DNA of 64,000 nucleotides from Anaerolineales bacterium (GTDB lineage Bacteria > Chloroflexota > Anaerolineae > Anaerolineales > UBA11579). Under the pieces are notes generated by a model. The model was not told the origin of the DNA. It searched no databases and saw only the letters and a list, made by a program, of their open reading frames with translations. This document shows, piece after piece, positions 3,550-55,910 of the stretch. Position 1 is the stretch's first letter. Every line of letters begins with the position of its first letter. Location of the stretch: assembly GCA_026129255.1 (NCBI GenBank), contig JAHCIJ010000001.1, forward strand, positions 186,001-250,000, in the 5' to 3' direction. Position numbers and translations under genes: made by a program.

Positions 3550-3558
3550 AGCTGCCCG

Positions 3559-3564: not shown

Positions 3565-3578
3565 GGGGATTAGGTGCC

Positions 3579-3608
3579 GGCTGGCACGCTTGTAAAAGCG
3601 TGCCAGCC
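3579..3608. repeat. Perfect 12-base inverted repeat in a divergent intergenic region
   Basis: GGCTGGCACGCT at 3579-3590 is exactly complementary to 3597-3608, with a 6-base loop. There is no T-run. It overlaps the expected -35 region of map, so it could be an operator or a repeat unit rather than a terminator. Confidence 0.6.
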
Positions 3609-3677
3609 AGCAACAGCAACCTGATAGGTTCTGAGAGTCTTGCGCGGCTACATTAAGCTCAACAGGAGAACAAAAAG

Positions 3678-4079: not shown

Positions 4080-4093
4080 CCCCATTCACCTAC

Positions 4094-4465: not shown

Positions 4466-4506
4466 ACCAGCGTTGTAGTCAGTTAAAATCCTGCCTGGCC
4501 CTCACT

Positions 4507-5124: not shown

Positions 5125-5130
5125 GTATCC

Positions 5131-7713: not shown

Positions 7714-7762
7714 AGCTCCTTATGCTTCAAGCTTCTACAGAAATGACACTCGCCGCACAAAC

Positions 7763-8251: not shown

Positions 8252-8599
8252 CTAAAACTCCATGATGGGGCGCACTTCTACGCTACCGTAGCGCGCCAGC
8301 GGGATGCCTGCCGCGATCTGGAGAGCGGCATTCAAGTCCTTGGCATTGATGAGAATAAAACCGCCCAAAACCTCCTTGGTTTCTGCAAACGGGCCGTCTG
8401 TGATGATGGGCTCGCCGTTGCGCACCCGCACCGTCGTAGCCGTCTCGGTGGGATGTAGCGCGTCCGCTGCCAGGAACACGCCCTGGGCTTGCAGCGTCTC
8501 GTCATACGCCAGCGATTCCACTTGTAGCGCGTCGATCTCTGGCTGCGGCATGCTGTCCCAGATTTTTGGCTCAAAATAGACCAGGCATAAGTACTTCAT
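8252..8599 (-). CDS. YCII-related DGPF-domain protein (first gene of operon)
   Basis: A 115-residue DGPF protein with TDGPFAETKEVLGGFILINA (about residues 69-88) and the N-terminus MKYLCLVYFEPK. It is homologous to the product of 7363-7713. It is the first gene of the four-gene minus-strand operon DGPF / ParB-like / DGPF / ECF sigma. AAAGGAG precedes the ATG. A candidate ECF42-type promoter (TGTCGA, 17 bases, CGAC) lies 35-61 bases upstream, which suggests that the sigma factor drives its own operon. Confidence 0.88.
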   Translation of the reverse strand: MKYLCLVYFEPKIWDSMPQPEIDALQVESLAYDETLQAQGVFLAADALHPTETATTVRVRNGEPIITDGPFAETKEVLGGFILINAKDLNAALQIAAGIPLARYGSVEVRPIMEF

Positions 8600-8633
8600 T
8601 GCAATCTCCTTTGATGGTTGGTTTCATACACTA

Positions 8634-8660
8634 GTCGTTTTGCCAAAGCCAAAATCGACA
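8634..8660 (-). promoter_or_regulatory. Candidate ECF42-type promoter, TGTCGA-N17-CGAC
   Basis: On the minus strand TGTCGA (8660-8655) is followed after exactly 17 bases by CGAC (8637-8634), 34 bases before the first DGPF start codon. As I recall it, the ECF42 group recognises TGTCGA at -35 and a CGA-type -10, so this would be an autoregulatory promoter. The match is by eye. Confidence 0.6.
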
Positions 8661-8808
8661 CAAATTACACCCAGGCGGAAAACTGACCTCAATCGGCAGT
8701 TAACAGTTCCTTTCTGCAAGTACAACCTCACAATAACCCACATGCCTAGATTTGCAGAGGCCCGTGGCGCATACTGCTGCTTATCTTAAGCTTCAGAAGG
8801 AGCAGTAC

Positions 8809-9852
8809 ATGTTCAAACGCAGTACCGTAATTTCCCTACTCTTTATCCTGGCGTTGTTGGCCGCTGCCTGTGGTGCCCCGGCGCCAGCCACGACCGTGCC
8901 CGCTGAGGCCGAGGCGCCCGCGGCCACCGAGGCACCTGCTGCCGAGAGCGCCTTCCCGGTCACCATCGCGCACAAATATGGCAGCACCACCATCGACTCC
9001 GCACCGCAGCGTATTGTGCTGGTGGGGCTCAATGAGCAGGACTCCCTGTTGGCGCTCGGTGTCGTGCCGGTGGCCACCAGCGAGTGGTACGGCGCACGCC
9101 CCGGCGCCATCTTTGAGTGGGCACAGGACGAGTATGCCGCCATCGCTGGCGCCGAGCTGCCCGTAGTGCTCGATTCAGTGCAGATCAACTTTGAGCAGAT
9201 CGCCAGCTTGGAACCAGATGTCATCATTGGCCTGTACTCTGGCCTTACTGCCGAGGAATATGCCACCCTTTCGCAGATCGCACCCACTGTAGCGCAACCT
9301 GCCGAGTACATTGACTGGGGCATCCCCTGGCAGGAGGTCACGCGCACCATTGGCAAGATCCTCGGCAAATCCGCAGAGGCGGAAGCCCTGATCAGCGGTG
9401 TGGAAGCTGATTTTGCCGCGGTGCGCGCTCAGTATCCGCAATTCCAGCAGGCTGAAGGTGTGGTGGCCACGGCTTACGGGCACCCGACCAGTTTTTATGC
9501 CTTCACCTCGCAGGATATCCGCGGCCGCATCATTGCCGATCTCGGCTTTCAAAACCCGCCCATCATCGATGAGCTGGCCGGCGACGAGTACGGCGCATCG
9601 ATCAGCTATGAGCGCTTTGACATCATTGATGTCGATCTGGTGATCTGGGTGGATGCCATGCCAGAGGATCTGCGCAGCAATCCGCTGTTCACTGCCCTCA
9701 ATGTGGTCAAAGACAACCGTGTTTACTACATTGACAACACCGATTCCCTGTACGATGCGCTTAACTTTGCCACCGTGCTCAGCTTGCCCTATGCCATCGA
9801 ACGGATGAACCCTGTTCTGGAAGGCCTGAGCCAGACCTTGCAAGGCAACTAA
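8809..9852 (+). CDS. Iron/siderophore-type ABC substrate-binding lipoprotein
   Basis: A 347-residue class III periplasmic-binding protein (FecB/BtuF type). The N-terminus is a lipoprotein signal with lipobox LAAAC, cysteine near residue 20. An Ala/Pro/Glu-rich linker follows, then RIVLVGLNEQDSLLALGVVP and ASLEPDVIIGL, two hallmarks of the family. The start at 8809 is chosen because it gives a proper signal peptide and is preceded by AGAAGGAG; an upstream in-frame codon at 8752 would add an implausible extension. No permease or ATPase gene is adjacent, so it is an orphan binding protein. A terminator follows at 9872. Confidence 0.88.
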   Translation: MFKRSTVISLLFILALLAAACGAPAPATTVPAEAEAPAATEAPAAESAFPVTIAHKYGSTTIDSAPQRIVLVGLNEQDSLLALGVVPVATSEWYGARPGAIFEWAQDEYAAIAGAELPVVLDSVQINFEQIASLEPDVIIGLYSGLTAEEYATLSQIAPTVAQPAEYIDWGIPWQEVTRTIGKILGKSAEAEALISGVEADFAAVRAQYPQFQQAEGVVATAYGHPTSFYAFTSQDIRGRIIADLGFQNPPIIDELAGDEYGASISYERFDIIDVDLVIWVDAMPEDLRSNPLFTALNVVKDNRVYYIDNTDSLYDALNFATVLSLPYAIERMNPVLEGLSQTLQGN

Positions 9853-9871
9853 GCCTCTTTGTGATCTAAAC

Positions 9872-9905
9872 AACAGCCCGCAGCGTCGCTGCGGGCTGTT
9901 TTTGT
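9872..9905 (+). terminator. Rho-independent terminator
   Basis: AACAGCCCGCAGC and its complement form a strong GC stem with a minimal loop, followed by a T-rich run, 20 bases after the binding-protein stop. Confidence 0.9.
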
Positions 9906-9936
9906 TTGTACTGCGCACATTGCTGGCCTGCTGCGC

Positions 9937-9965
9937 TTGACGCTCAATTTTGCGTATGCTAGTAT
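9937..9965 (+). promoter_or_regulatory. Sigma70-type promoter with extended -10
   Basis: TTGACG (9937-9942), a 17-base spacer and TAGTAT (9960-9965) preceded by TGC, an extended -10 motif. It lies 32 bases upstream of the LysM lipoprotein start. Confidence 0.75.
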
Positions 9966-9997
9966 CCGAATCGACCGGAATGGATGTTCTTAAAACT

Positions 9998-10630
9998 ATG
10001 AAAATCACACGTTCACTTGTGTTCCTGCTTGCAGCCTTGGTGTTGGCAGCCTGCACACGCTCTGCCTCTGCGGACCCCGTTGGCGTACCCACCGAGGACC
10101 CGCTGATCTCTATCTTCAACACCATGGCCACCCAAACCGCCCTGGCGGCACAAGACAAGACCGGTGTGCTGCAACCTACACTGGACCTTAACGCCACTCC
10201 ATTGTTCGGCAGCACGGCCACGCTGGAGCCGAGCGCCACGCCAGAGTCCACGGCGACTTCCACGCCAGCTCCCATCACGCAACTGGCCGTGCCCGCCAGC
10301 TACACCCTGCACGAAGGCGAGTGGCCCTACTGCCTGGCGCGCCGCTTTGACATTGACCCCGACGCACTGCTGGCTGCCAATGGCTTGAATGCCAGCAACG
10401 CCAACACCCTGAGCGTCGGCACTACGCTGACCATCCCCAGCGGAGTGGGCAGCTTCGGCGGCAATCGTTCGCTGCGGGCACACCCGGCCAGCTATGTGGC
10501 GTCTGGTGTGGATACCTTCTACAGCATCGCCTGCACTTTTGGGGATGTATGGCCCGAGCACATTGCAGAAGCCAACGGGATGACCCTTGACCAGGCCATT
10601 GCCGGTGGCACGCAACTGCACGTTCCCTAA
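9998..10630 (+). CDS. LysM-domain lipoprotein
   Basis: A 210-residue protein starting MKITRSLVFLLAALVLAAC, a lipoprotein signal with lipobox LAAC. A Thr/Pro/Ser-rich linker leads to a LysM domain (YTLHEGEWPYCLARRF ... LTIPSG, about residues 100-150). A second, weaker LysM-like unit follows (DTFYSIACTFGDV to the C-terminus). LysM domains bind peptidoglycan, so the protein probably sits at the cell wall. The start at 9998 is chosen for the signal peptide and fits the promoter at 9937-9965; the frame is open upstream to 9950. A related lipoprotein with LysM and M23 domains lies at 12800. Confidence 0.82.
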   Translation: MKITRSLVFLLAALVLAACTRSASADPVGVPTEDPLISIFNTMATQTALAAQDKTGVLQPTLDLNATPLFGSTATLEPSATPESTATSTPAPITQLAVPASYTLHEGEWPYCLARRFDIDPDALLAANGLNASNANTLSVGTTLTIPSGVGSFGGNRSLRAHPASYVASGVDTFYSIACTFGDVWPEHIAEANGMTLDQAIAGGTQLHVP

Positions 10631-10673
10631 AGGCTGCATGGGTTCAACGAGAAATTTGACAAAGCTGTCTGGC

Positions 10674-10702
10674 TTGCAGTTTCCCCACCTCATCATGATA
10701 GT
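10674..10702 (+). promoter_or_regulatory. Possible sigma70 promoter for the NUDIX gene
   Basis: TTGCAG and GATAGT with a 17-base spacer, 68 bases upstream of the NUDIX start. Both boxes deviate from consensus. TATACG at 10755 is an alternative close to the start codon. Confidence 0.3.
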
Positions 10703-10770
10703 TACGTCTGGGCGCCCTATGGGATCGCGCGCTCCACAGCAACGCGTGGCTGACTATACGATCGTCAACT

Positions 10771-11304
10771 ATGGCTACCTTTAAAACCATCAGCAGCGAG
10801 CTCGCCTACCGCGGCCAGAAGTTTGCCGTGCGCCGAGACATCCTCGAGACCAGCGATGGCCGCGAGGCCATCTACGACACCGTGGTGCACATCGGCGCCG
10901 TGTCGCTAGTGCCCATAGACGCTGACGGCAAGATCCTGCTGGTGCGCCAATACCGCCACTCCACCGGCAAGCAGCTGCTCGAGTTGCCGGCTGGCACGCT
11001 GGAGCCGGGCGAAGCCGTTGAGCTCACCGCGCAGCGCGAGTTGCGCGAAGAGGTCGGCATGGCGGCCGGTACGCTCACCCTGCTGGCTGAGTTCTATCTT
11101 GCCCCGGGCTATTCCACTGAGCGCATGTGGATCTACTTGGCGCAGGACCTGCGCCCGGATGCACTGCCGCCTGATCAGGATGAAGATCTGGAACTGGTGC
11201 GCATGAGTTTGGACGAGTGCCTGGCGGCCATCGGTAGCGGCGAGATCGAAGACGCCAAAACCATGCTGGGCTTGTTCATGGCGCGGCAAGCGTTGGTTGC
11301 TTAG
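10771..11304 (+). CDS. NUDIX hydrolase, ADP-ribose pyrophosphatase-like
   Basis: A 177-residue protein with a complete Nudix box, GTLEPGEAVELTAQRELREE and then VG (about residues 73-94). The N-terminal strand pattern and FYLAPGYSTERMWIYLAQDL are typical of ADP-ribose or nucleoside-diphosphate-sugar pyrophosphatases, which clear reactive ADP-ribose in the cytoplasm. The length is normal for the group. It precedes rho, but rho has its own strong promoter starting 19 bases after this stop. Confidence 0.88.
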   Translation: MATFKTISSELAYRGQKFAVRRDILETSDGREAIYDTVVHIGAVSLVPIDADGKILLVRQYRHSTGKQLLELPAGTLEPGEAVELTAQRELREEVGMAAGTLTLLAEFYLAPGYSTERMWIYLAQDLRPDALPPDQDEDLELVRMSLDECLAAIGSGEIEDAKTMLGLFMARQALVA

Positions 11305-11322
11305 CGCTTAGCGATTTGCTGC

Positions 11323-11351
11323 TTGATACCTGCTGGGAAAGCCGTTATAAT
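11323..11351 (+). promoter_or_regulatory. Strong sigma70 promoter of rho
   Basis: TTGATA (11323-11328), an exact 17-base spacer and a perfect TATAAT (11346-11351). The predicted transcription start near 11358 gives a 5' leader of about 145 bases before rho. The leader is long enough for autogenous control, as known for rho in other bacteria, but I recognise no specific element in it. Confidence 0.85.
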
Positions 11352-11502
11352 GTAGTGCAACTTTTCCCCAGAACACTTTTTGTTTACAACTTTCATAGTC
11401 CACTCGATTTGCAAACTCACCTAGTCCTGTACTGCCCGGGGCGTTTGGCAGCTACCCGTACGCGTTTATCCTTTCCTTCGTTCATTTCAGAGAAACCCAC
11501 CC

Positions 11503-12780
11503 ATGAATATTTTAGAACTTGAAACCACTTCGCTCAACGACTTGCGTAAGCAAGCCAAAGATCTTGGCGTAGAGCGCGCCGCTCGCCTCAAGCGCGAGGA
11601 TCTTGTCATCACCATCGCCCAGGTGATGGCCAGCAAGCAGGGCCGCGAGGTGCGCGGCGGCATCCTGGAGATCATGAACGAAGGCGTTGGCTTCCTGCGC
11701 TCCGAGCATTATCAAGGCGGCCCAGGTGACGTATATGTCTCCCAGACGCAGATCCGCCGCTATGGCTTGCGCAACGGTGACCTCATCATCGGCGAAGCCC
11801 GCCCGCCACGCGAATCTGAAAAGCACTTCGGCCTGGTGAAAGTGGAGTCCGTCAATGGCATGGACCCCGAGAAGGCCAAGACCCGCCCCCGTTTTGAAAA
11901 CCTGACCCCCATCTTCCCTGACAGCCGTTTTGACCTCGAGACCGACAAGCGCGGCCACGCCATGCGCATGATCAACCTGGTGGCCCCGGTGGGCCGCGGC
12001 CAACGCGGCCTCATCGTCTCCCCGCCCAAATCCGGCAAGACCACCATCCTCAAAGAGATGGCCAACTCCATCTCCACCAATTACAAAGACGTGCACCTCG
12101 TCGTGGCCCTTATCGGTGAGCGCCCCGAAGAAGTCACCGATATGGACCGCTCGGTGGACGCCGAAGTGATCTCCTCCACCTTCGATGAGCCGGTCACTTC
12201 GCATGTGCGCGCCGCCGAAATGGTGCTGGAGCGCTCCAAGCGCCTGGTCGAGATCGGCCGTGACGTGGTGATCTTGATGGACTCCATCACGCGCCTGGCG
12301 CGTGCTTACAACCTGGTGGTCACGCCCTCCGGCCGCACGCTCTCCGGTGGTATCGACCCGTCGGCGCTGTACCCGCCCAAGCGTTTCTTCGGCGCGGCTC
12401 GCAACATCGAGGAAGGCGGCTCGCTGACCATCATCGCCACCTGCCTGGTGGATACCGGCTCCCGTATGGACGACGTCGTGTACGAAGAGTTCAAAGGTAC
12501 CGGCAACATGGAGCTGCACCTCTCGCGCAAGATGCAGGAGCGCCGCATCTTCCCCGCCATCGATATCGAGCGTTCCTCCACCCGCCGCGAGGAACTGCTG
12601 CTCGGGCCGGACATCACCCAGCGTGTCTGGCTGATGCGCCGCATGTACAGCACCATGATCGCCGAGCCGCCCCACGGCGCAGGGATGGACACCACCAACG
12701 CCATGGAAGCCATGCTGCAGCGCATGGGCAAGACCGACAGCAACCAGGAATTCCTGGAAACGCTCATCGATCAGGACTAG
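11503..12780 (+). CDS. rho: Transcription termination factor Rho
   Basis: A 425-residue hexameric RNA-dependent ATPase that ends transcription at Rho-dependent sites. The Rho_N helical domain is at residues 1-45, followed by the cold-shock-like RNA-binding domain (RGGILEIMNEGVGFLR ... DVYVSQTQIRRYGLRNGD). The ATPase core has Walker A SPPKSGKTT (about residues 170-178), Walker B VVILMDSITRLARAYN and the R-loop region VDTGSRMDD. Length and order match the standard enzyme without the large insertion of some Actinobacteria. It is monocistronic or co-transcribed with the LysM/M23 lipoprotein that follows 19 bases later. Confidence 0.97.
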   Translation: MNILELETTSLNDLRKQAKDLGVERAARLKREDLVITIAQVMASKQGREVRGGILEIMNEGVGFLRSEHYQGGPGDVYVSQTQIRRYGLRNGDLIIGEARPPRESEKHFGLVKVESVNGMDPEKAKTRPRFENLTPIFPDSRFDLETDKRGHAMRMINLVAPVGRGQRGLIVSPPKSGKTTILKEMANSISTNYKDVHLVVALIGERPEEVTDMDRSVDAEVISSTFDEPVTSHVRAAEMVLERSKRLVEIGRDVVILMDSITRLARAYNLVVTPSGRTLSGGIDPSALYPPKRFFGAARNIEEGGSLTIIATCLVDTGSRMDDVVYEEFKGTGNMELHLSRKMQERRIFPAIDIERSSTRREELLLGPDITQRVWLMRRMYSTMIAEPPHGAGMDTTNAMEAMLQRMGKTDSNQEFLETLIDQD

Positions 12781-12799
12781 TCCTTTTCTGCTTCCCGCT

Positions 12800-35470: not shown

Positions 35471-36481
35471 ATGGACCCCTACGAGAACTACGAACCGCCG
35501 CTGCGTCCTGAGCCCGAAGAGCCGCGGCGCCCTACGCCTCCCGAGGCTCCGCAAGCGCCGCCCGCGGCTCCCCGCCCGCTGCCAGCTGCGCCCATCACCT
35601 CGCGTGACCTCGCTGGGCGCACTACTTTGGAGGCCACGCGTGCCTCGCGGCCGGTGCGGGGCACGGGCCGCGGTTGCCTGCCTGTACGCGCACTGCTGCT
35701 CATCATTGTGGCGCTGGCCGCCTATCTGCTCACCCCGCTGCCCAACAATCTGCTCATCATGGGCATTGACCGCACGCCCGACGGCACCGATATTGGCCGC
35801 AGCGATACGCTGATTCTTGTCAGCGCCCGGCCCTTGTCTGGCCGCATTGAAATGCTCTCGATCCCGCGTGATCTGTGGCTGCCCATCCCCGGCTATGGCG
35901 AGAACCGCATCAATGCCGCCCACGCCTTCGGCGAAGGTGCGGGCGCGGGTGGTGGGCCGCGGCTGGCGCTCGAAACGCTGCGCAGCAATTTTGGCGTCAA
36001 TGTCAATCACTATCTGCGCATTCGCCTGGCCGGTTTCCCGGCTGTGGTGGATGCGCTCGGTGGCGTCACCATCACGTTGGATGCGCCTGCTGCAGGCTAC
36101 CCCGCAGGCTCACACCACTTGAATGGCACGCAAGCGCTCGCCTTCGTGCGCGATCGTAGTGGAGATGATTTCTTTCGCATGGCGCACGGCCAACTCTTTA
36201 TCGTCTCGGTTGGCAAAAAGATGCTCAATCCCTTGGAATGGCTGCGCATTCCGAGTGCATTGATCGCGTTGGATCAAGCCGTGGATACGAATCTACCGGT
36301 GTGGTTGTGGCCGCGCTTCGCATTTGTTTTTCTGCGCGCAATTGTCTTTGATGGTTTGCATGCAGTCACACTGCCGCGTGAAGCGGTTATCCCCTGGGTT
36401 ACTAGTGGCGGTGCACAAGTGTTGTTACCCAACTGGAATTTAATTCTGCCTATCATCAAAGAGATGTTCGCAGTCTTCTAA
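35471..36481 (+). CDS. LytR-CpsA-Psr (LCP) family protein
   Basis: A 336-residue protein: a cytoplasmic Pro/Arg-rich N-terminus of about 70 residues, one transmembrane helix (about 76-92) and an LCP domain. LCP hallmarks are LLIMGIDR, GRSDTLILV, LSIPRDLWLPIPGYGENRINAA (Arg residues for the pyrophosphate), and ALAFVRDRSGDDFFRMAHGQ. These proteins transfer lipid-linked polymers to peptidoglycan or proteins. The part after about residue 230 is shorter than usual. No Shine-Dalgarno sequence is seen; CATAAT at 35418 could be a -10 box. Confidence 0.88.
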   Translation: MDPYENYEPPLRPEPEEPRRPTPPEAPQAPPAAPRPLPAAPITSRDLAGRTTLEATRASRPVRGTGRGCLPVRALLLIIVALAAYLLTPLPNNLLIMGIDRTPDGTDIGRSDTLILVSARPLSGRIEMLSIPRDLWLPIPGYGENRINAAHAFGEGAGAGGGPRLALETLRSNFGVNVNHYLRIRLAGFPAVVDALGGVTITLDAPAAGYPAGSHHLNGTQALAFVRDRSGDDFFRMAHGQLFIVSVGKKMLNPLEWLRIPSALIALDQAVDTNLPVWLWPRFAFVFLRAIVFDGLHAVTLPREAVIPWVTSGGAQVLLPNWNLILPIIKEMFAVF

Positions 36482-36688
36482 TTTTTTTCTGCACGCGCGA
36501 AATTAATTACGCAAGCGTCAAGATTTTTTGTAGAAAGCTCACTTTTTTACATTTTTTATACATACAAAACATTTTTCGTACATTTTTATACGCAGTTTTG
36601 CACACGTTTTACACATGCACAGTCATATACTTTTTGTATCACGCTAACTGTTTTCAGTTAGTGCACTCGTGGAAGGAGAACCACAAAA
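36482..36688 (+). promoter_or_regulatory. T-tract-rich upstream region of the histone-like gene
   Basis: The 207 bases are much more AT-rich than the surroundings. T- or A-tracts of 4-7 bases begin near 36543, 36552, 36566, 36572, 36583, 36596, 36607 and 36631, roughly one helical turn apart, which predicts intrinsic curvature. TATACT at 36626-36631 could be the -10 box. A GGAAGGAG ribosome-binding site precedes the ATG. Confidence 0.5.
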
Positions 36689-36874
36689 ATGGCTGTTGCA
36701 AAGAAGAAAGCTGCTGCAAAGAAGAAGGTTGCTAAGAAGGCCGTCAAGAAGACTGCCAAGAAGGTGACCAAGAAGGCTGTGAAGAAGACCGTGAAGAAGG
36801 CCGTCAAGAAGACCGCCAAGAAGGCCGTCAAGAAGACCGCCAAGAAGGCTGCTAAGAAGACCGCCAAGCGCTAG
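36689..36874 (+). CDS. Small Lys/Ala-rich histone H1-like protein
   Basis: A 61-residue protein made almost wholly of Lys, Ala, Val and Thr. Imperfect repeats of the type KKAVKKTA or KKTAKKAV run from residue 5 to the end. Such composition is that of bacterial H1-like DNA-binding proteins (Hc1, AlgP tail, HU tails), so it is expected to bind DNA and condense or shape the nucleoid. There is no other domain. It has its own AT-rich promoter region and a terminator, so it is monocistronic and probably abundant. The same kind of sequence is found as a tail on the ABC ATPase at 23450-25090. Confidence 0.85.
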   Translation: MAVAKKKAAAKKKVAKKAVKKTAKKVTKKAVKKTVKKAVKKTAKKAVKKTAKKAAKKTAKR

Positions 36875-36891
36875 GTTTTCAAAACAGTCAC

Positions 36892-36926
36892 AAAGAAGCG
36901 GCGCACATGCGCCGCTTCTTTGTTTT
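36892..36926 (+). terminator. Rho-independent terminator
   Basis: AAAGAAGCGGCGC and its complement with a 4-base loop, followed by TGTTTT. Confidence 0.9.
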
Positions 36927-36936
36927 AACTTTGCGT

Positions 36937-36942
36937 CATAAT
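36937..36942 (+). promoter_or_regulatory. -10 box (CATAAT) next to the adenosine deaminase start
   Basis: CATAAT ends 6 bases before the ATG at 36949 and no Shine-Dalgarno sequence is present. A leaderless transcript is predicted. Confidence 0.45.
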
Positions 36943-36948
36943 TGAGCT

Positions 36949-37956
36949 ATGTCCAACGCGCATCCCAACCTGCCACTCATCGATCTGCATCGCCACTTGG
37001 ATGGCAGCGTACGTTTGCAAACCATCCTGGAGCTTGGCCGCCAGCACAATTTGCCCTTGCCCGCATGGGACCTTGAGGGCTTGCGGCCGCATGTGCAAGT
37101 GGCCGAGATCCAGCCAGACATTATGGAGTTCATCGCTCGCTTCAAGTGGATGGTGGGCGTAATGGTGGACTATGCCGCGGTGGAGCGTATCGCCTACGAG
37201 AACCTGCTGGACGCACAGACTGAGGGCATTGACTATATTGAGCTGCGCTTCAGCCCGGCCTTCATGGCCAGCGCTCACGCGCTCGACCCGGCGGAGGTGT
37301 GCGCCGCCGTGGCCGCTGGCGTGCAGCGCGGCATGGCCGAAACCGGGGTCAGAGCCAACCTCATCGGCATCATCAGCCGTCACTTTGGCGTCGAGCAGGG
37401 CATGGCCGAGCTCAAGGCCCTGCTGGCCCATAAGCAGCATTTTGTGGCCTTGGACCTGGCTGGCGACGAGGGCCGCTTCCCCGGCAGCCTGTTTGTGGAG
37501 CATTTCCACCTGGCGCGTGAGGCTGGCTGGCATATTACCGTGCATGCTGGCGAGGCCGCTGGCGCCGAGAGCATCTGGCAGGCCGTGCGTGACCTCGGCG
37601 CCACGCGCATCGGCCACGGCGTGCGCGCCATGGATGACCCGGCCCTGGTCGAATACCTGGTGGAGCACCGCATCGGTGTAGAGGCCAACCTCACCAGCAA
37701 CGTACAGACCAGCACCGTGCCCAGCTACGCCGCCCATCCGCTCAAAGCCCAGCTGGAGGCCGGTGTGCTGGGGACGATCAACTCAGACGACCCTGGCATC
37801 AGCGCCATTACCCTGCCGTACGAATACGATGTGGCCGCACCTCAGGCCGGGCTCAGCCTGGAGCAGATCCACCAGGCCCAGCGCAACGCGCTGGAGCTGG
37901 CCTTCCTGCCAGCTGCCGAAAAAGCCGAGTTGTTGCAGATCAAGGAGGCTCAATAA
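36949..37956 (+). CDS. add: Adenosine deaminase
   Basis: A 335-residue zinc-dependent TIM-barrel enzyme that converts adenosine to inosine. The zinc motif is LHRHLDGS (about residues 13-20); other active-site elements are HAGEAAG (about residues 200-206), GHGVRAMDD and NSDDPGIS (about residues 280-287). The length fits bacterial adenosine deaminase. It suits the nucleoside importer encoded at 22311-27622: imported adenosine would be salvaged through it, although the two are not in one operon. Its stop overlaps the next start (TAATG). Confidence 0.92.
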   Translation: MSNAHPNLPLIDLHRHLDGSVRLQTILELGRQHNLPLPAWDLEGLRPHVQVAEIQPDIMEFIARFKWMVGVMVDYAAVERIAYENLLDAQTEGIDYIELRFSPAFMASAHALDPAEVCAAVAAGVQRGMAETGVRANLIGIISRHFGVEQGMAELKALLAHKQHFVALDLAGDEGRFPGSLFVEHFHLAREAGWHITVHAGEAAGAESIWQAVRDLGATRIGHGVRAMDDPALVEYLVEHRIGVEANLTSNVQTSTVPSYAAHPLKAQLEAGVLGTINSDDPGISAITLPYEYDVAAPQAGLSLEQIHQAQRNALELAFLPAAEKAELLQIKEAQ

Positions 37957-47092: not shown

Positions 47093-47860
47093 CTACGGCC
47101 ACGGCACATCCACAAAGGGTGTGTAACCATGCTTCTCGGCTGCTGCTACCCGGGCGTAGCCCGGCATGCCGCAACTGCCATCATCAATGATCTGTGCCGA
47201 TGTGCCCCACGAGCCGACTGCGGTGAAGACATACTCGCCGCCCTGGCACACCCAGGCCTCCACCACGTAGGGCGTCTGCTCTGAGTCGTCGCCGGCATTG
47301 AGCTGGATGCCGTGCCAGCTCACCGTCACCGTGTTGCCGCTGCGCACCGCGTTCACTCCGCTCAGCCCGCGTATATAGATGTAGGACCAGGCCAGCACAG
47401 TATGCGGGTCACGCGGCGGCAGGGAGTTGCGGTCGCCGGTGAATTGCAAATAATCTTCGCCGCCGTTGACCCAGCAGCGGTTGTTGCCGCCGATGGCTTG
47501 CACCAGCACCCAGTTGCTGTGCTCCATGCGCCCCACGACTTCGATATTGACCCCGCCGGGGAAGGTGAACTTGTATAGATAGTCGGCCCCAGGCCCAAAG
47601 CGGCAGGCCAGCCGCCCGTCTACGATCACCTTGGCGCGCAAGGAGTCCACATAGGTGGGCGTTACCGTGGGCGTATCGGTGGCCGTGGGGACGGGAGTCG
47701 GTGTTTCGGTTGGGGTAGGGGTGGCGCTCGGCAGCGGGGTGTGCGATGGCGTCACCGTGGCGGGCAGTGGCAGCGGCGTCTCTGTAGGCGCCGGGGCGAT
47801 GGTGTTGCATGCGGTGAGCAGCAAGGCAAGGGTAGCGAGGGCAGCCGCGCGGTGTTTCAT
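47093..47860 (-). CDS. Lipoprotein with Thr/Pro linker and SH3-like domain (paralogue 1)
   Basis: A 255-residue lipoprotein with lipobox LLTAC (Cys about residue 18), a ~50-residue Thr/Pro-rich linker and a beta-rich outer region. RLACRFGPGADYLYKFTF begins an SH3b-like domain; the C-terminus ends EKHGYTPFVDVPWP. The gene at 48864-49649 encodes a paralogue with the same ending pattern (DKHGYTGWVGVPWP) and the same CRFGPG start of the domain. Function unknown; probably a cell-surface protein. The start at 47860 is chosen because it gives a proper signal peptide. Confidence 0.8.
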   Translation of the reverse strand: MKHRAAALATLALLLTACNTIAPAPTETPLPLPATVTPSHTPLPSATPTPTETPTPVPTATDTPTVTPTYVDSLRAKVIVDGRLACRFGPGADYLYKFTFPGGVNIEVVGRMEHSNWVLVQAIGGNNRCWVNGGEDYLQFTGDRNSLPPRDPHTVLAWSYIYIRGLSGVNAVRSGNTVTVSWHGIQLNAGDDSEQTPYVVEAWVCQGGEYVFTAVGSWGTSAQIIDDGSCGMPGYARVAAAEKHGYTPFVDVPWP

Positions 47861-47912
47861 AGTGTTTGCATTATACTTTCCTAGACATTGCCCATTGTTT
47901 GGAGGCGCGTGC

Positions 47913-48737
47913 ATGAAGGAACCCGGTTTTTTCAATAATTACGACAGCAGCGTGGTCATCGGCATCCTGATGGCGATCGGCCTGGTGGTCACGTTGATCA
48001 CGGCTGGCCCCGGGGAAGCCACACGCAGCTTCCTGGCTGAAGCCATTATCCTCGCCGCTACGTTCGCCGTGGCGCGCCAGTATCTCCCCTGGAAAGATGC
48101 CCCCAAAGAGCGCCTCAAAGGCCCGCGCCGTGAGCTGATCCTGGGTTTGGTGGGCTACGGCCTGCTGGTCTTCGGCGCCGCCGAGAGCTTCCGCGGCAAC
48201 ATCAGCTGGCCGTGGCTGCTGGGCGCCATGCTGCTGCCCGTCATCGCCATGGTCTCTGCTGGCTACGGTACGCGCGCCTGGGGCCTGCGTATGCCCAAGC
48301 CTGCCGAGATCGGCGTGCTGGCCGTGGTGATCCTGCTGGTTTATGTCCTCAGCCGTGGGCTGGGTGCCATCCTGCCGCCGCGTGAGCTGGGCGGGGCGGC
48401 GGGCGAGAACGCCATCGCCAATGCGCTGGCGTTCATCGGCAACAACGCCGTCGTGCTGGTGGCGGCGGCCGCCCTGGTCGAAATTTTCTTCCGCGTCTAT
48501 TTGCAGCCGCGCCTGGCCGCCTACTTGCCGGGCCGCTGGGCTGTCGTCGTGCAGTCCGTCTTGTACAGCGCTTCGTTCCTGCCGCTGTACGTGAACCGCT
48601 ACCCGATCACCTACGCCGCGGCACTGGTGCTGGTGCTGACCAACGGTGTGCTGGGTGGCTACTTCTGGCGCAAAACCGGCAATCTGTGGCTGCTCATTCT
48701 GCTGCACTTGTTTGCGTTTGGAAGGTACGGGTTGTAG
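47913..48737 (+). CDS. CPBP-like membrane protein with degenerate motifs
   Basis: A 274-residue protein with about eight hydrophobic segments. The C-terminal half follows the CPBP (Abi, CaaX-protease-like) pattern, but motif 1 (EExxxR) reads VEIFFR with only one Glu, and the motif-2 His is not seen (FLPLYVN); a His remains near the end (LLHLFAFG). It may thus be a non-catalytic homologue. GGAGG precedes the ATG. It lies between the two paralogous lipoprotein genes and is divergent from the first, within 52 bases. Confidence 0.7.
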   Translation: MKEPGFFNNYDSSVVIGILMAIGLVVTLITAGPGEATRSFLAEAIILAATFAVARQYLPWKDAPKERLKGPRRELILGLVGYGLLVFGAAESFRGNISWPWLLGAMLLPVIAMVSAGYGTRAWGLRMPKPAEIGVLAVVILLVYVLSRGLGAILPPRELGGAAGENAIANALAFIGNNAVVLVAAAALVEIFFRVYLQPRLAAYLPGRWAVVVQSVLYSASFLPLYVNRYPITYAAALVLVLTNGVLGGYFWRKTGNLWLLILLHLFAFGRYGL

Positions 48738-48863: not shown

Positions 48864-49649
48864 CTATGGCCAGGGCACTCCGACCCAGCCAGTGTAGCCG
48901 TGCTTGTCTGAACCGAAGGCGCGTGCCCGCGAGGCGTTGCTACAGTTGCCCTTCTCGTCCTGGATCTCGATCGAGGTGTTGTTGGTGCCATAGGCACGGA
49001 AGACGAACTCGCCGTTCTGGCACACCCATGCTTCGATCAAATATTTGTTTTGCAGCGAATCATCGCCTGGCAGGTAGGTGAACGGCTCCCAATACACCGT
49101 CACAATATTGCCCTGGCGGGTGGCGCGCACGCCTTTGAGCGGCTCGTAGGGCTGGGTGGTGTAGGGCAGCACCAGGTGGGGGTTATCGATGGGGTAGACC
49201 AGGCTGCGGTCCACGCCCAGCGTGATGAGCTCCTGGCTGACCCAGCATTTGCGCGCCGGGCGGTACTCCACCAGGTTGACGTACCACCAGTTCTCGTTGA
49301 GCGCCATGTGGCCGAGCACTTCGACCGTATTGCCCTCATACAGCGTTGTCGCCAGCAGGTAGCCGCCGCCCGGCCCGAAGCGGCAACTGGCCATCTCCAC
49401 ATTCACGGTACCCCAGGTAAAGCAGGGCGTCGGCGGCGGGGTTTGGCTGGCGGTGGGGGTGATGCTGGGCGTCAGCGTGATCGTGGCCGTGGGTGTGTGG
49501 CTGGCGGTGGCGGTTGCCGTGGCGCTAGCCGTCAGGGTCGGCGTATCCGTGGCCGTAGCCGTGGCGGTTGGCTCCGGCGCCAGGGCGCTGCAGCCAGCCA
49601 GCAGGAGGGCGAAGACGGCAATGAATAGTAGGGCGGGGGAACCACGCAT
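48864..49649 (-). CDS. Lipoprotein with Thr/Pro linker and SH3-like domain (paralogue 2)
   Basis: A 261-residue lipoprotein with lipobox LLAGC (Cys about residue 20) and a long linker of Thr, Ala and Pro (about residues 27-75). MASCRFGPGGGYLLATTLYEG starts an SH3b-like domain and a second beta domain ends in DKHGYTGWVGVPWP. It is clearly homologous to the protein of 47093-47860 over the outer region, but the linkers differ. Cysteines in both (AWVCQNG/AWVCQGG and the NC near the end) are conserved and may form a disulfide. Function unknown. Confidence 0.8.
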   Translation of the reverse strand: MRGSPALLFIAVFALLLAGCSALAPEPTATATATDTPTLTASATATATASHTPTATITLTPSITPTASQTPPPTPCFTWGTVNVEMASCRFGPGGGYLLATTLYEGNTVEVLGHMALNENWWYVNLVEYRPARKCWVSQELITLGVDRSLVYPIDNPHLVLPYTTQPYEPLKGVRATRQGNIVTVYWEPFTYLPGDDSLQNKYLIEAWVCQNGEFVFRAYGTNNTSIEIQDEKGNCSNASRARAFGSDKHGYTGWVGVPWP

Positions 49650-50013: not shown

Positions 50014-50226
50014 ATGGCAGAACGCATTCAAGGCACCGTCAAGTGGTTCAATGGCACCAAGGGTTTTGGTTTCATCACCCGCGACAACGGCCCGGACGTC
50101 TTCGTCCACTTCAGCGCCATCAGCGGCGATGGCTTCCGTAATTTGGAAGAGGGTCAGAAGGTGGAATTCACCGTCACCCAGGGCCAGAAAGGCCCCCAAG
50201 CTCAAGATGTCACCGTCGTAGGTTAA
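50014..50226 (+). CDS. Cold-shock protein, CspA family (copy 2)
   Basis: A 70-residue cold-shock domain with [15 protein letters not shown] and [14 protein letters not shown]. It is almost the same as copy 1 (46723-46935); differences are concentrated near the ends. It binds RNA as a chaperone. A long leader precedes it and a strong terminator follows. Confidence 0.96.
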
Positions 50227-50254
50227 TTTAGTTAGCCTATAACGCTGTAAAAAC

Positions 50255-50290
50255 AAAAACACCGCCCGGCGTAAGCCGGGCGGTGTTTTT
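50255..50290 (+). terminator. Rho-independent terminator
   Basis: AAAAACACCGCCCGGC and its complement form a perfect 16-base stem with a 4-base loop, followed by TGTTTT-type sequence. Confidence 0.93.
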
Positions 50291-50356
50291 GTTTTAGCTA
50301 TTCTATTGGCGCCTATTTCAAATGTCTCTAGAGGTGATTAGAGAGTCTGCTCGAGT

Positions 50357-51958
50357 TCACTCTCCAAAATCAGGGACATGGCGGAAAACTCGATCTACTT
50401 TTAGAAAATACGTAGGAATTGAAGGCCCTTGTGGCTGATGTTTTCTTTCCTCTAAATCGACAAATAGTATTAGATAAATTACAGCCGCTCGTGTAATTTT
50501 CATAACTTGCACAGTTTCTTGAAAAAAAGAAGAATGTAGGAGCTTTGGAATGTTAGCTCCCTCATTTTGTCGAATGCTCTCCGTGTGCAAGGAAAGAAAG
50601 CGATGGGTAAGAACATTGCGACGTTTATAAACAAAGTCAAATTCTCCATTCTCCTTTAAATCCAATGCTAAATCTAGTAGGCCATGAAGTAGCAAGTTGC
50701 TTTTTGCGGCCAACTCGGGTCTAAGTTGTTGAGGGTCTTCTCTGCTTGACCAAATGTTTCTAAAATTGACTTTATTGTGCGGCACTGAGGTTACTTCACA
50801 GTAATCATGGACGAACGCTGCTATCTTATCCAGAGTATCAACAGCTAACCTAAATGCTACCTTTAGCATCTGTGCATAAGAACTATGAACTGAATAATCT
50901 AGTGGATAGTAATAATCTACCTCTTTGTCAATTGCTTCCGTATATTTGGACCTGTAGGTTGACTGGACTAAAAGATAGCGCGAGAAAACGTAGTCCTGTT
51001 TGATCTGATTCAGAAAGGTTGCATATTTATTAAATTTAGTCCTGTCTCCTAGTTTTGCCCACATGTATGTTATGAACATTGGATCGCCTAAAACCTGCTT
51101 TCCATCTACTCCTACAAATGATGTTGGACTCAGATAGAGCTTGTTTTTTAAACAAAAATCTCGTAAGTATTTCTCAAACTTACTCTGAGACTTTGTGTTT
51201 CGCACTTTTTCCGGGCCAACATTTTCCGAGTGAAGTACGAAAAAGTTATCAATCTCCCTAAGATGTTTCCTTATAAATTCCTCGAGCAGGGGATATGGTT
51301 TTGTCGAAAGAGCTAGTTTGTGAAGTCGTTCTGCTTCAAGCATGAAAAGATGAGTGTGACCAATTGCGGGGAAAGCTAGGTTCTGTAAAACTTGAGCCTT
51401 ATTGCTCAGCGCCTCGGTTTTTCTTGGGTCAAGCCTTAGCGCGCTATCGAATGCCTCAAGACTCTCGATTGGTCTTCCTATCGCATCTAGAGTATTGCCG
51501 TAGTTTGTATAAAGGTCCGGAAGATTTCGCCTTTCATATTCATTAATTCTTTTTGTTTTTGAAATTGAAATTGCCCGCCTGTATAGCTCTTTTTCGCGGA
51601 TGTGCTCGCTTGAAATCTTTCCAGCCTTGAACGATTCCTGACGGATAAATTTATTTAAGGCTGAATAACCATTTGCAAGATTGTAATGATGCATAACACT
51701 AAATTCATCAGTTTCCTGATGAGAGACATATTCCTCTAGATAGCTTATTCCTCGTTGGACGAAACTAATCTGATTTGTCCAAGACCCAAAATCAATCATG
51801 ACGCCGCCGAGATTTCCTCTGTGATGAATCATCTCTGGAGTTAGTTGAGCAAGGGAAAACTCCTGCTCTGCCGCATCAATTAATTGCTTAACAAGCGGGA
51901 GATTGTTTTGAGTAAGTGCTTGGTTTGCCTGAAGAACAATAGAAGCTATTTTCTGCAT
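50357..51958 (-). CDS. TPR protein with C-terminal HEPN domain (LA2681-like), AT-rich
   Basis: A 533-residue protein. The N-terminal half (about residues 1-240) is helical with TPR-like units, the clearest being DLYTNYGNTLDAIGRPIESL and EAFDSALRLDPRKTEALSNK. The C-terminal part (about 355-500) is all helical and carries RNVLTH (residues 447-452), the R-x4-H motif of HEPN ribonucleases. TPR plus HEPN in this order fits the LA2681-like HEPN family. The gene is far lower in GC than its neighbours and has AT-rich codons, which suggests horizontal transfer. A strong AGGAGGG lies 5 bases before the ATG. No MNT-type antitoxin or other defence gene is adjacent. A role in phage defence or RNA cleavage is inferred. 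Confidence 0.65.
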   Translation of the reverse strand: MQKIASIVLQANQALTQNNLPLVKQLIDAAEQEFSLAQLTPEMIHHRGNLGGVMIDFGSWTNQISFVQRGISYLEEYVSHQETDEFSVMHHYNLANGYSALNKFIRQESFKAGKISSEHIREKELYRRAISISKTKRINEYERRNLPDLYTNYGNTLDAIGRPIESLEAFDSALRLDPRKTEALSNKAQVLQNLAFPAIGHTHLFMLEAERLHKLALSTKPYPLLEEFIRKHLREIDNFFVLHSENVGPEKVRNTKSQSKFEKYLRDFCLKNKLYLSPTSFVGVDGKQVLGDPMFITYMWAKLGDRTKFNKYATFLNQIKQDYVFSRYLLVQSTYRSKYTEAIDKEVDYYYPLDYSVHSSYAQMLKVAFRLAVDTLDKIAAFVHDYCEVTSVPHNKVNFRNIWSSREDPQQLRPELAAKSNLLLHGLLDLALDLKENGEFDFVYKRRNVLTHRFLSLHTESIRQNEGANIPKLLHSSFFQETVQVMKITRAAVIYLILFVDLEERKHQPQGPSIPTYFLKVDRVFRHVPDFGE

Positions 51959-52033
51959 CTTACCCTCCTAGTGTATTTTAAATCGTATATTCCAGAGTAG
52001 GTGGATGTAGGCATAAATCTTCACTCCGTCGGG

Positions 52034-52065
52034 GCCAAGCACGCCGCATGCCCACTGCTAGCGAG
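52034..52065 (+). repeat. Diverged second copy of a T-box stem I segment
   Basis: The 32 bases match 52146-52177 (within stem I of the ileS T-box) at 25 of 32 positions and share CTGCTAGCGA. At one pair of positions C/G here corresponds to T/A there, which would keep base pairing. This copy lies upstream of the presumed promoter. Confidence 0.55.
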
Positions 52066-52136
52066 TTGTGCCTTGCTGGCACAAAGCTTACGCAGATCCT
52101 GCGCCTTCCGCTCAAACTCTATGGCATAATTCCCAC

Positions 52137-52405
52137 ATCCTCAGAGCCGAGTACGCCTCGTACCCGCTGCTAGCGAACCCGAGACAGTGCAAGCCGGGCC
52201 AGCGCACGTGGCCGAACATCCCTCTGTTGTACGCAAACCCAACGTCGCCCGCTCGCTGGCGGCCAGTAGGGGCGCCGGGCTCGTATCCCGTTACCAAGAC
52301 GACTAAGTTGCCTGCGGCTAAGTGAGCGCAGGAACATGGGTGGTACCGCGGGCTAGCGCTCGTCCCATGTGTTGCCAAGCAACACATGGGACGAGCGCTT
52401 TTTTG
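52137..52405 (+). promoter_or_regulatory. T-box (tRNA-Ile-sensing) attenuator of ileS
   Basis: The T-box core TGGTACCGCGG is exact at 52341-52351. It is followed by a perfect 20-base-pair terminator stem (52355-52374 with 52380-52399) and a T-run. Stem I is closed by CAGAG (52142-52146) and CTCTG (52222-52226), and ATC, an Ile codon, stands just before the closing strand at 52218-52220, where the specifier is expected. Uncharged tRNA-Ile would favour the antiterminator and switch on ileS. CATAAT at 52125-52130 is the likely -10 box. The 92 bases from the terminator to the ATG hold no gene. Confidence 0.9.
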
Positions 52406-52496: not shown

Positions 52497-55400
52497 ATGT
52501 TCAAAGAAGTACCCAACAAAGTAGATTTCATCGCTCAGGAGCACGAGATGCTGGCCTTCTGGCAGGCCGACCGCTCGCTGGCCAAGTTGCGCGCTCTGCG
52601 CGCCGGCGCCAAGCCCTGGTCCTTCATTGACGGCCCCATCACCGCCAACAACCCCATGGGCGTCCACCACGGTTGGGGCCGCACCTACAAAGACCTCTAC
52701 AACCGCTACTACGCTATGCAGGGCCGCCAGTTGCGCTACCAGCAGGGCTTTGACTGCCAGGGCCTGTGGGTCGAGGTCGAGGTCGAGAAGGAGCTCAAGT
52801 TCGCCAGCAAGCGCGACATCGAAGCCTATGGGCTCGACCAGTTCGTGCTGCGCTGCAAGGAACGCGTCCTGCGCTTCGCCGCCGTGCAGACCGAGCAGTC
52901 CATCCGCCTCGGCTACTGGATGGAGTGGGACGACCCCGCTCAGCTGCGCTGGCTGGCTGACCAGCTCGCCGCTGACCCGCAAGCCGAAATTGCCTACGCC
53001 GGCCCCGCCGGCGGCGCCGCCGGCACTGTCGAGCAGGTCGTCGGCCACCTCGGCCTGCCTGAGCTCGGCGGCAGCTACTTTACTTTCAGCGATGAGAACA
53101 ACTACATGATCTGGGCCTTCCTCAAGAAGTGCTGGGAGAAGGGCTGGCTCTACCGCGGCGCAGACTCCATGCCCTGGTGCCCACGCTGCGCCACCGGCAT
53201 CAGCCAGCACGAGATCGAGAGCGATGGCTACAAAGAGGTTACGCACAAGTCGATCACCTTGCGCATGCCGCTGCGCGGCCGCAGCAACGAGTACCTGCTG
53301 GCCTGGACCACGACTCCCTGGACCCTCACCAGCAACGTGGCCGCCGCCGTCGGTCCGGAGCTTGACTATGTGAAGGTACGCCAAGGCGAAGATGTCTACT
53401 ATCTCTCCAAGGGCACGCTCGCCATGCTCAAGGGCGAGCACGAAGTCCTGGCCGAGCTCAAGGGGCGTGACATGGAAGGCTGGGCCTACGATGGCCCCTT
53501 CGATGACCTGCCCGCCGCCAACGAGCCCGGCGGCCACCTCGAGCTGCGTGACTTGGTGAAGGGCGTCACCCAGTCCGCCAGGGAGGCCCACCGCGTCATC
53601 CTCTGGGATGAGGTAGGTGAGGCCGAAGGCACCGGCATCGTGCACATCGCCCCCGGCGCCGGCGCCGAGGACTACCAGCTTGGCCTGCAAAACAAGCTCC
53701 CCATCATCGTCCCCATCGACGACGAAGCACGTATTGTGGATGGCTTCGGTAAATTTGTCGGAGCCACCACCGCTGAAATTCCTGATTTGATTGCGGATGA
53801 CCTTCAGCAAAAAGGCCTTCTGTACAAATACGAGCCATATACTCACCGCTATCCCACCTGCTGGCGCTGCAAGACCGAGCTGGTCTGGCGCGTGGTAGAC
53901 GAGTGGTTCATCAGCATGGGCCAGTCCTACGACAAGCCCCGCGAGGAACTCACCGCCGACGAGAAGGCCAACAGCCTGCGCTACCAGATCATGGATGTGG
54001 TCGACCAGATCCGCTGGGTGCCGGAGTTCGGCCATGCCCGTGAGATGGACTGGCTGCGCAACATGCACGACTGGATGATTAGCAAGAAGCGCTACTGGGG
54101 CCTGGCCCTGCCCATCTGGGTCTGCGACACCTGCAAGCAGCACACCGTCGTCGGCAGCGAAGACGAGCTGGCCGAGCGCGCCGTCGCTGGTTACGAAACC
54201 TTCGCCGGCCACACGCCGCACCGCCCGTACATCGATGCCGTCAAGGTCAAGTGCGAGCACTGCGCCGAGGGCCACATGACCCGCATCCCGGATGTCGGCA
54301 ACCCCTGGCTCGACGCCGGCATCGTCAGCATGAGCACCTTGCGCTACCGCAGCGAGCCTGAGTACTGGCAGCAGTGGTTCCCGGCTGACTGGATCAGTGA
54401 GAGCTTCCCCGGCCAATTCCGCAACTGGTTCTACAGCATGCTCGCCATGGGCACCGTCATGGCCGAGACCGCGCCGTTCAAGAATCTCTTCAGTTACAGC
54501 ACGCTGCTCGACGAGCACGGCGAGTCCATGCACAAGAGCAAGGGTAACTCCATCGAGTTCAACCAGGCCGCCGATAAGATGGGCGTGGATGTGATGCGCT
54601 GGATGTATTGCGCGCAGAAGCCGGAGAACAACCTGCTCTTCGGCTACAACAAGGCCGACGATGTGCGCCGCCGCTTCCTAATCCCGCTGTGGAACATCTA
54701 CAGCTTCTTTGTCACCTACGCCCGCCTGGATGGCTGGACGCCCAGCTTCGCCACCTTCGACCCCAACAATCCTGAGGGCGCCACGCCGCAGTCCGACAAT
54801 CCGCTGGACAAATGGATCCTGGCTCGACTAAATCAAACTGTTGACCAAGCGACCAACCGACTAAACAACTGGGACGCTTTCGGCGTCACCCTGGCTGTCG
54901 AGTCCCTCATCGACGATATGTCCAACTGGTACGTGCGCCGCAGCCGCCGCCGCTTCTGGCGCAGTGAGCAAGACGGCGACAAGCAGGCCGCCTACACCAC
55001 GCTGTGGCATGTGTTGGTCAAGCTCATCCGCACCATCGCGCCCATGACGCCCTTCGTGGTCGAGGAGATGTACCAGAACCTGGTCGCCGCCCACAACGAT
55101 GCCGCCTACTCCAGCGTCCACATGACCCTGTATCCGCAGGCCGACACCGCCGCCATCGACGAGACTCTCATCAATGAGATGGGCCTCGCCCGCCAGGTGG
55201 CCAGCCTCGGCCTCAGCGCCCGCGGCGCGGCCAATTTGAAAGTGCGCCAGCCGCTGGCTAAGGCCCTGGTTCACGCCTCTGGCGGGACCAAGCAACTAGC
55301 TGACTATCTGACCGATATCATCAAGGACGAGCTGAACATCAAAGAACTCTCCTTCGTTGAACAAGCCGGGCAGCTGGTCACCTACAGCCTGCAGCCCAAC

Positions 55401-55910
55401 AACGCCAAGCTCGGCCCGCGCTTCGGCGCCGATTTCCCCAAGCTGCGCGGCGCGCTCAACGCGCTCGACGCAGCCGTCGTCGCCGCCCGCGTGGCGGCCG
55501 GCGAGCCCGTTCAGCTCACGCTGGACGGCAACGATGTTGAGCTGGCCGCCGACGAGGTGCTGGTCAACAGCCAGCCCGCCGAAGGCCTGGCCGTCGCCGC
55601 CGAGAAAGGCGTCACCGTCGGCCTCGACACCGCTCTCACGCCGGAGCTGCGCGCCGAAGGTACCGCCCGCGAGCTAGTGCGCCGCATCCAGGACATGCGC
55701 AAGAAGGCTGACTTCAATATCGAAGACCGCATCCGCACCTACTACACCGCCGAAGGCGACCTGGCTGCCGTGCTGGCCGACTGGGCCGAGACCATCAAGT
55801 CAGAGACGCTCAGCCTGGAGCTGACTGCTGGCCCCGCACCGGCCGGAGCCTACACCGAGGAGCACAAAGTGGACGGCGCTGCGGTAACCTTGGCCGTAGT
55901 GAAAGCTTGA
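52497..55910 (+). CDS. ileS: Isoleucyl-tRNA synthetase
   Basis: A 1137-residue class I synthetase. The HIGH motif is PMGVHHGWG (about residues 50-58) and KMSKS is MHKSKGN (about residue 680). FDCQGLWVEVEVEKEL and the large CP1 editing domain (about 200-400, with TTPWTLTSNVAAAV) are as in the long IleRS type shared by Actinobacteria and Chloroflexota. The C-terminal anticodon-binding region begins near residue 760. AAGGAG precedes the ATG. The T-box upstream senses tRNA-Ile. A short AT-rich patch at about 54826-54875 differs in base use from the rest of the gene. Confidence 0.96.
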   Translation: MFKEVPNKVDFIAQEHEMLAFWQADRSLAKLRALRAGAKPWSFIDGPITANNPMGVHHGWGRTYKDLYNRYYAMQGRQLRYQQGFDCQGLWVEVEVEKELKFASKRDIEAYGLDQFVLRCKERVLRFAAVQTEQSIRLGYWMEWDDPAQLRWLADQLAADPQAEIAYAGPAGGAAGTVEQVVGHLGLPELGGSYFTFSDENNYMIWAFLKKCWEKGWLYRGADSMPWCPRCATGISQHEIESDGYKEVTHKSITLRMPLRGRSNEYLLAWTTTPWTLTSNVAAAVGPELDYVKVRQGEDVYYLSKGTLAMLKGEHEVLAELKGRDMEGWAYDGPFDDLPAANEPGGHLELRDLVKGVTQSAREAHRVILWDEVGEAEGTGIVHIAPGAGAEDYQLGLQNKLPIIVPIDDEARIVDGFGKFVGATTAEIPDLIADDLQQKGLLYKYEPYTHRYPTCWRCKTELVWRVVDEWFISMGQSYDKPREELTADEKANSLRYQIMDVVDQIRWVPEFGHAREMDWLRNMHDWMISKKRYWGLALPIWVCDTCKQHTVVGSEDELAERAVAGYETFAGHTPHRPYIDAVKVKCEHCAEGHMTRIPDVGNPWLDAGIVSMSTLRYRSEPEYWQQWFPADWISESFPGQFRNWFYSMLAMGTVMAETAPFKNLFSYSTLLDEHGESMHKSKGNSIEFNQAADKMGVDVMRWMYCAQKPENNLLFGYNKADDVRRRFLIPLWNIYSFFVTYARLDGWTPSFATFDPNNPEGATPQSDNPLDKWILARLNQTVDQATNRLNNWDAFGVTLAVESLIDDMSNWYVRRSRRRFWRSEQDGDKQAAYTTLWHVLVKLIRTIAPMTPFVVEEMYQNLVAAHNDAAYSSVHMTLYPQADTAAIDETLINEMGLARQVASLGLSARGAANLKVRQPLAKALVHASGGTKQLADYLTDIIKDELNIKELSFVEQAGQLVTYSLQPNNAKLGPRFGADFPKLRGALNALDAAVVAARVAAGEPVQLTLDGNDVELAADEVLVNSQPAEGLAVAAEKGVTVGLDTALTPELRAEGTARELVRRIQDMRKKADFNIEDRIRTYYTAEGDLAAVLADWAETIKSETLSLELTAGPAPAGAYTEEHKVDGAAVTLAVVKA

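Follow-up and report, generated by a model that had tools for sequence, protein, structure and literature searches.

Position of its relatives in the PrrC slot of type I restriction operons suggests that an AT-rich TPR-HEPN gene may be a second-line anti-phage device

The stretch of DNA analysed here (the window, 64 kb) comes from a Chloroflexota genome of 2.38 Mb in seven contigs, whose relatives with named records are MAGs of that phylum. Between the terminator of a cold-shock protein gene (csp) and the T-box leader of ileS it contains a single gene, encoded on the reverse strand as 533 codons without an internal stop (Table 1). The GC content of this gene is 0.398 and its GC3 0.352, whereas the 48 ORFs of 150 aa or longer in the window average 0.615 (sd 0.046) in GC and 0.753 (sd 0.091) in GC3; it lies approximately 4.7 sd below the mean for GC and 4.4 sd below that for GC3, and has the lowest GC of the entire set. 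The inverted repeat downstream of csp is the terminator of that gene, and probably serves the TPR-HEPN gene as well, while the long ORF on the other side is one that we take, by recognition, to be ileS. A preliminary description of this DNA had pointed to an AT-rich island at 50300-52030 containing one gene of much lower GC than its surroundings, flanked by a cold-shock terminator and the ileS T-box and with no antitoxin or mobility gene adjacent. All of this is borne out: the neighbours are csp and ileS, the low-GC DNA stops at about 52025-52060, and sequence common with a congener restarts at 52063.

Table 1. Positions of the features discussed, in the window unless a locus is named
Feature	Position	Strand	Basis
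Cold-shock protein gene (csp), 70 aa, left anchor of the hotspot	50014..50226	+	Sequence; kept beside the site in congeners
Perfect 21-bp inverted repeat, T/A runs on both sides	50250..50295	.	Sequence reading
Acquired AT-rich segment, csp terminator to ileS leader, interval GC 0.405	50297..52062 (boundaries accurate to about 40 bases)	.	GC profile and congener alignment
TPR-HEPN (LA2681 family) gene, 533 aa	50357..51958	-	ORF and PF18733 match; full-length homologues at 38-48% identity
HEPN_LA2681 domain, residues 307-503	50450..51040	-	PF18733, E 1.5e-37, 129.4 bits (curated cut-off 27 bits)
R-x4-H motif RNVLTH, residues 447-452, predicted RNase active site	50603..50620	-	R447/H452 invariant
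TPR-like superhelix, residues 1-245, presumed sensor/regulatory part	51224..51958	-	AlphaFold2 model and TPR profiles at 148-194
Ribosome-binding site AGGAGGG, Shine-Dalgarno-like, 4 nt before ATG	51963..51969	-	Direct sequence reading
ileS T-box leader, anchoring the hotspot on the right	52129..52370	+	RF00230, full model length, E 4.6e-11, 53.9 bits (below the curated gathering cut-off of 93)
ileS	52497..55910	+	ORF of 1137 aa; conserved in congeners
Congener csp-ileS intervals with AT-rich cargo	L023:3481-6807, L024:2814-5451, L027:3666-6550
Operon at L048	hsdM 5163-6758, hsdS 6718-7986, X 7995-9605, hsdR 9598-12792
Operon at L049	hsdS 1679-3109, X 3115-4710, hsdR 4904-7987
Defence island at L033	L033:2611-11467

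A search for direct repeats flanking the AT-rich segment found none; insertion by recombinational replacement between the csp and ileS flanks is possible. BLAST comparison of the 64 kb with a small set of references identified no relatives of restriction-modification genes. Elsewhere in the window, a second dip in GC (0.489 across 36001-37000) is mostly non-coding, and falls between a 336-aa ORF ending at 36481 and an adenosine-deaminase-like gene starting at 36949. A paralogous pair of lipoprotein-like genes (47093-47935 and 48864-49649, reverse strand) is 41% identical over 210 residues, with Thr/Pro-rich N-termini, the common C-terminal end HGYTxxVxVPWP and no informative Pfam match.

The TPR-HEPN gene is missing from all ten congeners, in which the interval between csp and ileS is filled by other, mostly AT-rich cargo. 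One genome (G001) has genes of 777 aa and 301 aa there, in an interval with a GC of 0.455. Two others (G006 and G004) have a two-gene YaaC (PF14175) cassette with a GC of about 0.45; the first genes of these cassettes are 60% identical, and the second, of approximately 320 aa and without a Pfam match, 42% identical. A further two (G007 and G008) have a short interval of about 0.8 kb. This pattern of absence and alternative content identifies the csp-ileS interval as a cargo hotspot of the genus, at which DNA is acquired, and the YaaC pair and the pair of 777-aa and 301-aa genes may represent further candidate defence genes. Both the foreign base composition and the uneven occupancy of the site agree with the preliminary description, and not with a gene syntenic in all relatives.

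The same patchiness is evident at greater distances. By protein search a homologue is present in three of 101 relatives, the genome under study included, and the family occurs in 5/400 genomes of the order, 9/396 of the class and 3/400 of the phylum. Scanning the genome contigs with the single protein as query produced no match, and scanning them with a three-row profile produced five loci. The homologous genes have a lower GC than their flanks at 23 of 24 loci, with a mean difference of 7.3 points, which implies that low GC is a habit of a mobile family rather than a peculiarity of the window copy. Scans of the IMG/VR viral contigs with A2, A3, L070 and L043 detected no relative, and hence give no evidence of TPR-HEPN genes being common in phages. 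A 12.9-kb faecal record labelled as a 'bacteriophage' (L046, MT836114.1), which carries a homologue, looks like an integrative mobilizable element.

The C-terminal part of the protein matches the LA2681-type HEPN profile over positions 5-204 of 204, and TPR profiles match at residues 148-194; no profile for an ATPase domain matched the protein, and neither the PADLOC models nor NCBIfam yielded a meaningful family match. Across 25 homologues from bacteria and archaea, which are 20-48% identical to the query, the only invariant residues are D292, R327, D377, R447 and H452. The chance of R447 and H452 both being among five invariant positions of 533 is about 1 in 14,000 (10/141,778). Position 454 is a phenylalanine in the window protein, and a tyrosine in nine of the 25 homologues. 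TPR and HEPN parts are encoded as split genes in Haloplanus. An LA2681-like HEPN family with a TPR fusion or TPR partner is tabulated by Anantharaman et al. 2013 (PMC3710099), and public plasmid records are already annotated 'LA2681 family HEPN domain-containing protein'; as the family and its TPR fusion have been described, this is not a new class of device. According to that source, HEPN domains with an Rx4-6H motif are metal-independent RNases by prediction, and for several of them this is established (PMC3710099).

A full-length AlphaFold2 model, built with six sequences, has a pLDDT mostly above 80 for residues 1-245 and is weaker in its C-terminal part. The N-terminal superhelix aligns with TPR structures at VIA-align Z scores of 15-20, with Rap proteins among the matches; TPR superhelices bind peptides or proteins. 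Searching Foldseek with the full model was swamped by TPR proteins, and a sequence profile picked up no solved structure for the HEPN part, all 60 matches listed being TPR.

When modelled alone, the HEPN domain (residues 288-508) has a pLDDT of 75 and a pTM of 0.75. Of the ten matches that VIA-align ranks highest for it, nine are HEPN toxins from HEPN-MNT systems, although the Z scores of these ten (9.7-10.2, with 123-142 residues aligned) are modest, since values below 13 are weak for helical bundles. The second-ranked entry is described by locus tags only, as SO_3166-SO_3165, which is the Shewanella HepT-MntA pair. The best sixteen matches are mostly HEPN-MNT toxins or other proteins of HEPN fold (HI0074, YutE, the sacsin HEPN domain and AF_0298), the one clear non-HEPN stranger being p130Cas at rank 11; LsoA, Csm6, AbiV and RnlA are found lower in the list. 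A Foldseek search of the domain against PDB and BFVD gave no match at E 0.001, with HEPN entries (1jog, 7bxo and 7ae8) appearing only at E >1. Given these modest and non-significant scores, it is the combination of profile, motif and structure that carries the assignment of the fold. On this combined evidence, what had been read from the sequence alone, namely TPR-like repeats joined to a HEPN domain with RNVLTH as its R-x4-H motif, proves sound, as does the suggestion that the LA2681-like families should be searched for its relatives.

Most of the closest relatives with a visible context belong to type I restriction operons or to defence islands of other kinds. At locus L048 (47% identity) the gene order is hsdM-hsdS-X-hsdR, where X is the TPR-HEPN gene; it begins 8 bases past hsdS, and its stop overlaps the start of hsdR. 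The order at L049 (41% identity) is hsdS-X-hsdR. At L033 (39% identity) a 386-aa gene and hsdR come after X, with genes for an APAZ-REase protein and a short Argonaute beyond them; the end of the contig cuts the upstream side of X, such that hsdR is the only hsd gene visible. L032 (48% identity) is outside any hsd operon, but has a C5 methylase approximately 3.4 kb away. In the tree the window protein groups with L032 and L048 (support 100/99), and these with L049 and L033 form a clade of five (support 99/96). Consequently, the notion of a one-gene device put forward in the preliminary description fits the window copy, but does not extend to most of its closest relatives.

The gene at L032 has a 558-aa neighbour (L032:9651-11327), located 3 bases upstream, that has no Pfam or PADLOC match and has RSTGVAH (R-x5-H) in its C-terminus. 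Relatives of this protein occur on plasmids of Pseudomonas, Rhodococcus and Streptomyces, where they are annotated as hypothetical, and none was found in the genome to which the window belongs. That it might be the same partner as the 386-aa protein of L033 was rejected, as BLASTP aligned the two with an E value of 0.038 at 20% identity.

Among the other homologues the neighbourhoods are more varied. HsdM adjoins the TPR-HEPN gene at L064 and other DNA methylases adjoin it at L063, L034 and L066; a type II restriction enzyme and methylase precede it on the L046 mobile element; ResIII helicases lie nearby at L036 and L040, the latter also having AbiEii and CBASS genes; qatABCD is directly adjacent at L073 and nearby at L076; a PADLOC candidate system is close at L042, and a phage portal gene at L070. 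By a raw count, a restriction or named defence component is present within about two genes at 13 of approximately 32 independent loci. At L068, L081, L082 and L041 no recognised defence genes were detected beside the homologue, and L082, L068 and the window represent solo copies in AT-rich surroundings. Such copies, along with the location of L032 outside an hsd operon, indicate that a restriction partner is not obligatory. At L069 (743-10729) HsdM, an AAA_13 protein, a recombinase-like gene and the TPR-HEPN gene occur within 10 kb; AAA_13 is the ATPase family including PrrC/RloC-type proteins.

The genome under study has just one HsdR and two places with an N6-methylase in its 2.38 Mb, a scarcity that makes chance adjacency to restriction genes, of the order observed in the relatives, very unlikely. 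This HsdR belongs to a complete type I operon, hsdM-hsdS-hsdR, on contig C2 (L071:2958-9001), with nothing in the slot between hsdS and hsdR. It has an N-terminal DUF4145 domain, which is listed as a HEPN-superfamily member in the classification of PMC3710099.

The arrangement at L048 is that of PrrC, an anticodon nuclease that acts as a suicide RNase in E. coli, for which both the operon order hsdM-hsdS-prrC-hsdR and the mode of activation have been described (PMC3014915). Its occurrence with LA2681-type genes appears to be unreported: restriction operons are not mentioned for this family in the main text of PMC3710099, the table of which lists only the TPR fusion or partner. The literature searched contained no experiments on any LA2681-family member, nor the name LA2681 outside PMC3710099. 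The window protein resembles the tabulated family in its HEPN domain, Rx4H motif and TPR fusion, and it is the insertion of its relatives into type I operons that is different.

The window gene is probably a horizontally acquired, single-gene abortive-infection effector, in which TPR repeats gate an LA2681-type HEPN RNase. The HEPN domain would be a metal-independent endoRNase acting through R447, H452 and probably D377, and would be silenced as long as the cell is healthy. The TPR superhelix may be a protein-binding sensor or regulatory part that detects a change induced by phage, on which the HEPN domain, probably as a dimer, would cut RNA on which translation depends, bringing growth of the infected cell to a halt. 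The role in defence is one that we infer from the neighbourhoods of the relatives. Since relatives in the clade of the window protein occupy the PrrC slot of hsd operons, a type I restriction enzyme that fails or is inhibited would be a plausible natural trigger in this clade. The window copy, with no hsd operon beside it, might act alone or answer to the separate type I system; the complete operon with an empty slot on contig C2 makes such action in trans possible.

One sharper form of this explanation, overlapping with it, is that the TPR-HEPN protein of this clade is a guard in the strict manner of PrrC, which binds HsdRMS and, once that enzyme is inhibited by an anti-restriction protein from a phage, is set free or activated; the window copy would have been left behind after loss of hsd, or would work in trans with the C2 operon. 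This is a tentative reading, to which the overlapping or near-touching genes at L048 and L049, the hsdR downstream of X at L033, the grouping of all three with the window copy in one supported clade and the empty slot elsewhere in the genome lend weight. Against it, the window copy and L032 are both unlinked to hsd, other family members either neighbour Qat, type II and further systems or stand by themselves, and genes in defence operons may merely hitch-hike. The RNase domain of PrrC is also classed as HEPN within the scheme of PMC3710099, yet PrrC of EcoprrI (prrABCD) combines an ABC-type NTPase at its N-terminus with an R-E-H triad, where the window protein has TPR repeats, Rx4H and no ATPase domain. 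RloC, another HEPN RNase, is mostly unlinked to restriction operons and has been proposed to interact with them in trans (PMC2610378), although it has a Rad50-like ATPase with a zinc hook in place of TPR repeats. The other sharper form, possible if somewhat doubtful, is a stand-alone sensor-effector whose TPR part would recognise a phage protein or small signal by direct binding and activate the RNase, the linkage to restriction being only the clustering of defence islands. The solo copies, the variety of defence neighbours, the binding properties of TPR superhelices and the Rap proteins among the structural matches are all consistent with this, but the tight coupling to hsdS and hsdR in the nearest relatives exceeds mere clustering.

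A general stress RNase, or a HepT-like toxin of a toxin-antitoxin pair, is improbable. HepT toxins are the nearest in fold to the HEPN domain and have the same R-x4-H core motif; they are, however, small single-domain proteins about a quarter the size of this one, encoded adjacent to an MNT antitoxin. MNT antitoxins AMPylate the tyrosine of RX4HXY in HepT, whereas the window gene has no nucleotidyltransferase partner beside it, and this tyrosine is replaced by phenylalanine and is not conserved in the family. A patchy and mobile distribution, rather than a core one, also argues against this reading. It is similarly unlikely that the gene is in transit without a current function: its status as a single-copy orphan of strongly foreign composition would suit such an origin, but the intact reading frame, the good ribosome-binding site and the retention of every family-invariant residue would not.

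The TPR-HEPN proteins of this Chloroflexota clade might, tentatively, constitute a second, ATPase-free class of restriction guards, occupying the PrrC slot, in which the TPR part would sense failure of HsdRMS and RNA would be cleaved; the window copy would then be a guard turned free-standing module at the csp-ileS hotspot. What appears to be new is the restriction-slot arrangement of the relatives, the family and the TPR fusion being known. Since its tabulation in 2013 the LA2681 HEPN family has been little more than a name, and its members in the PrrC slot give it a concrete and testable role, reducible to the question of whether a TPR-HEPN RNase becomes active once a type I restriction enzyme is inhibited. 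If this were true, more than one kind of switch would have evolved for the guarding of restriction enzymes.
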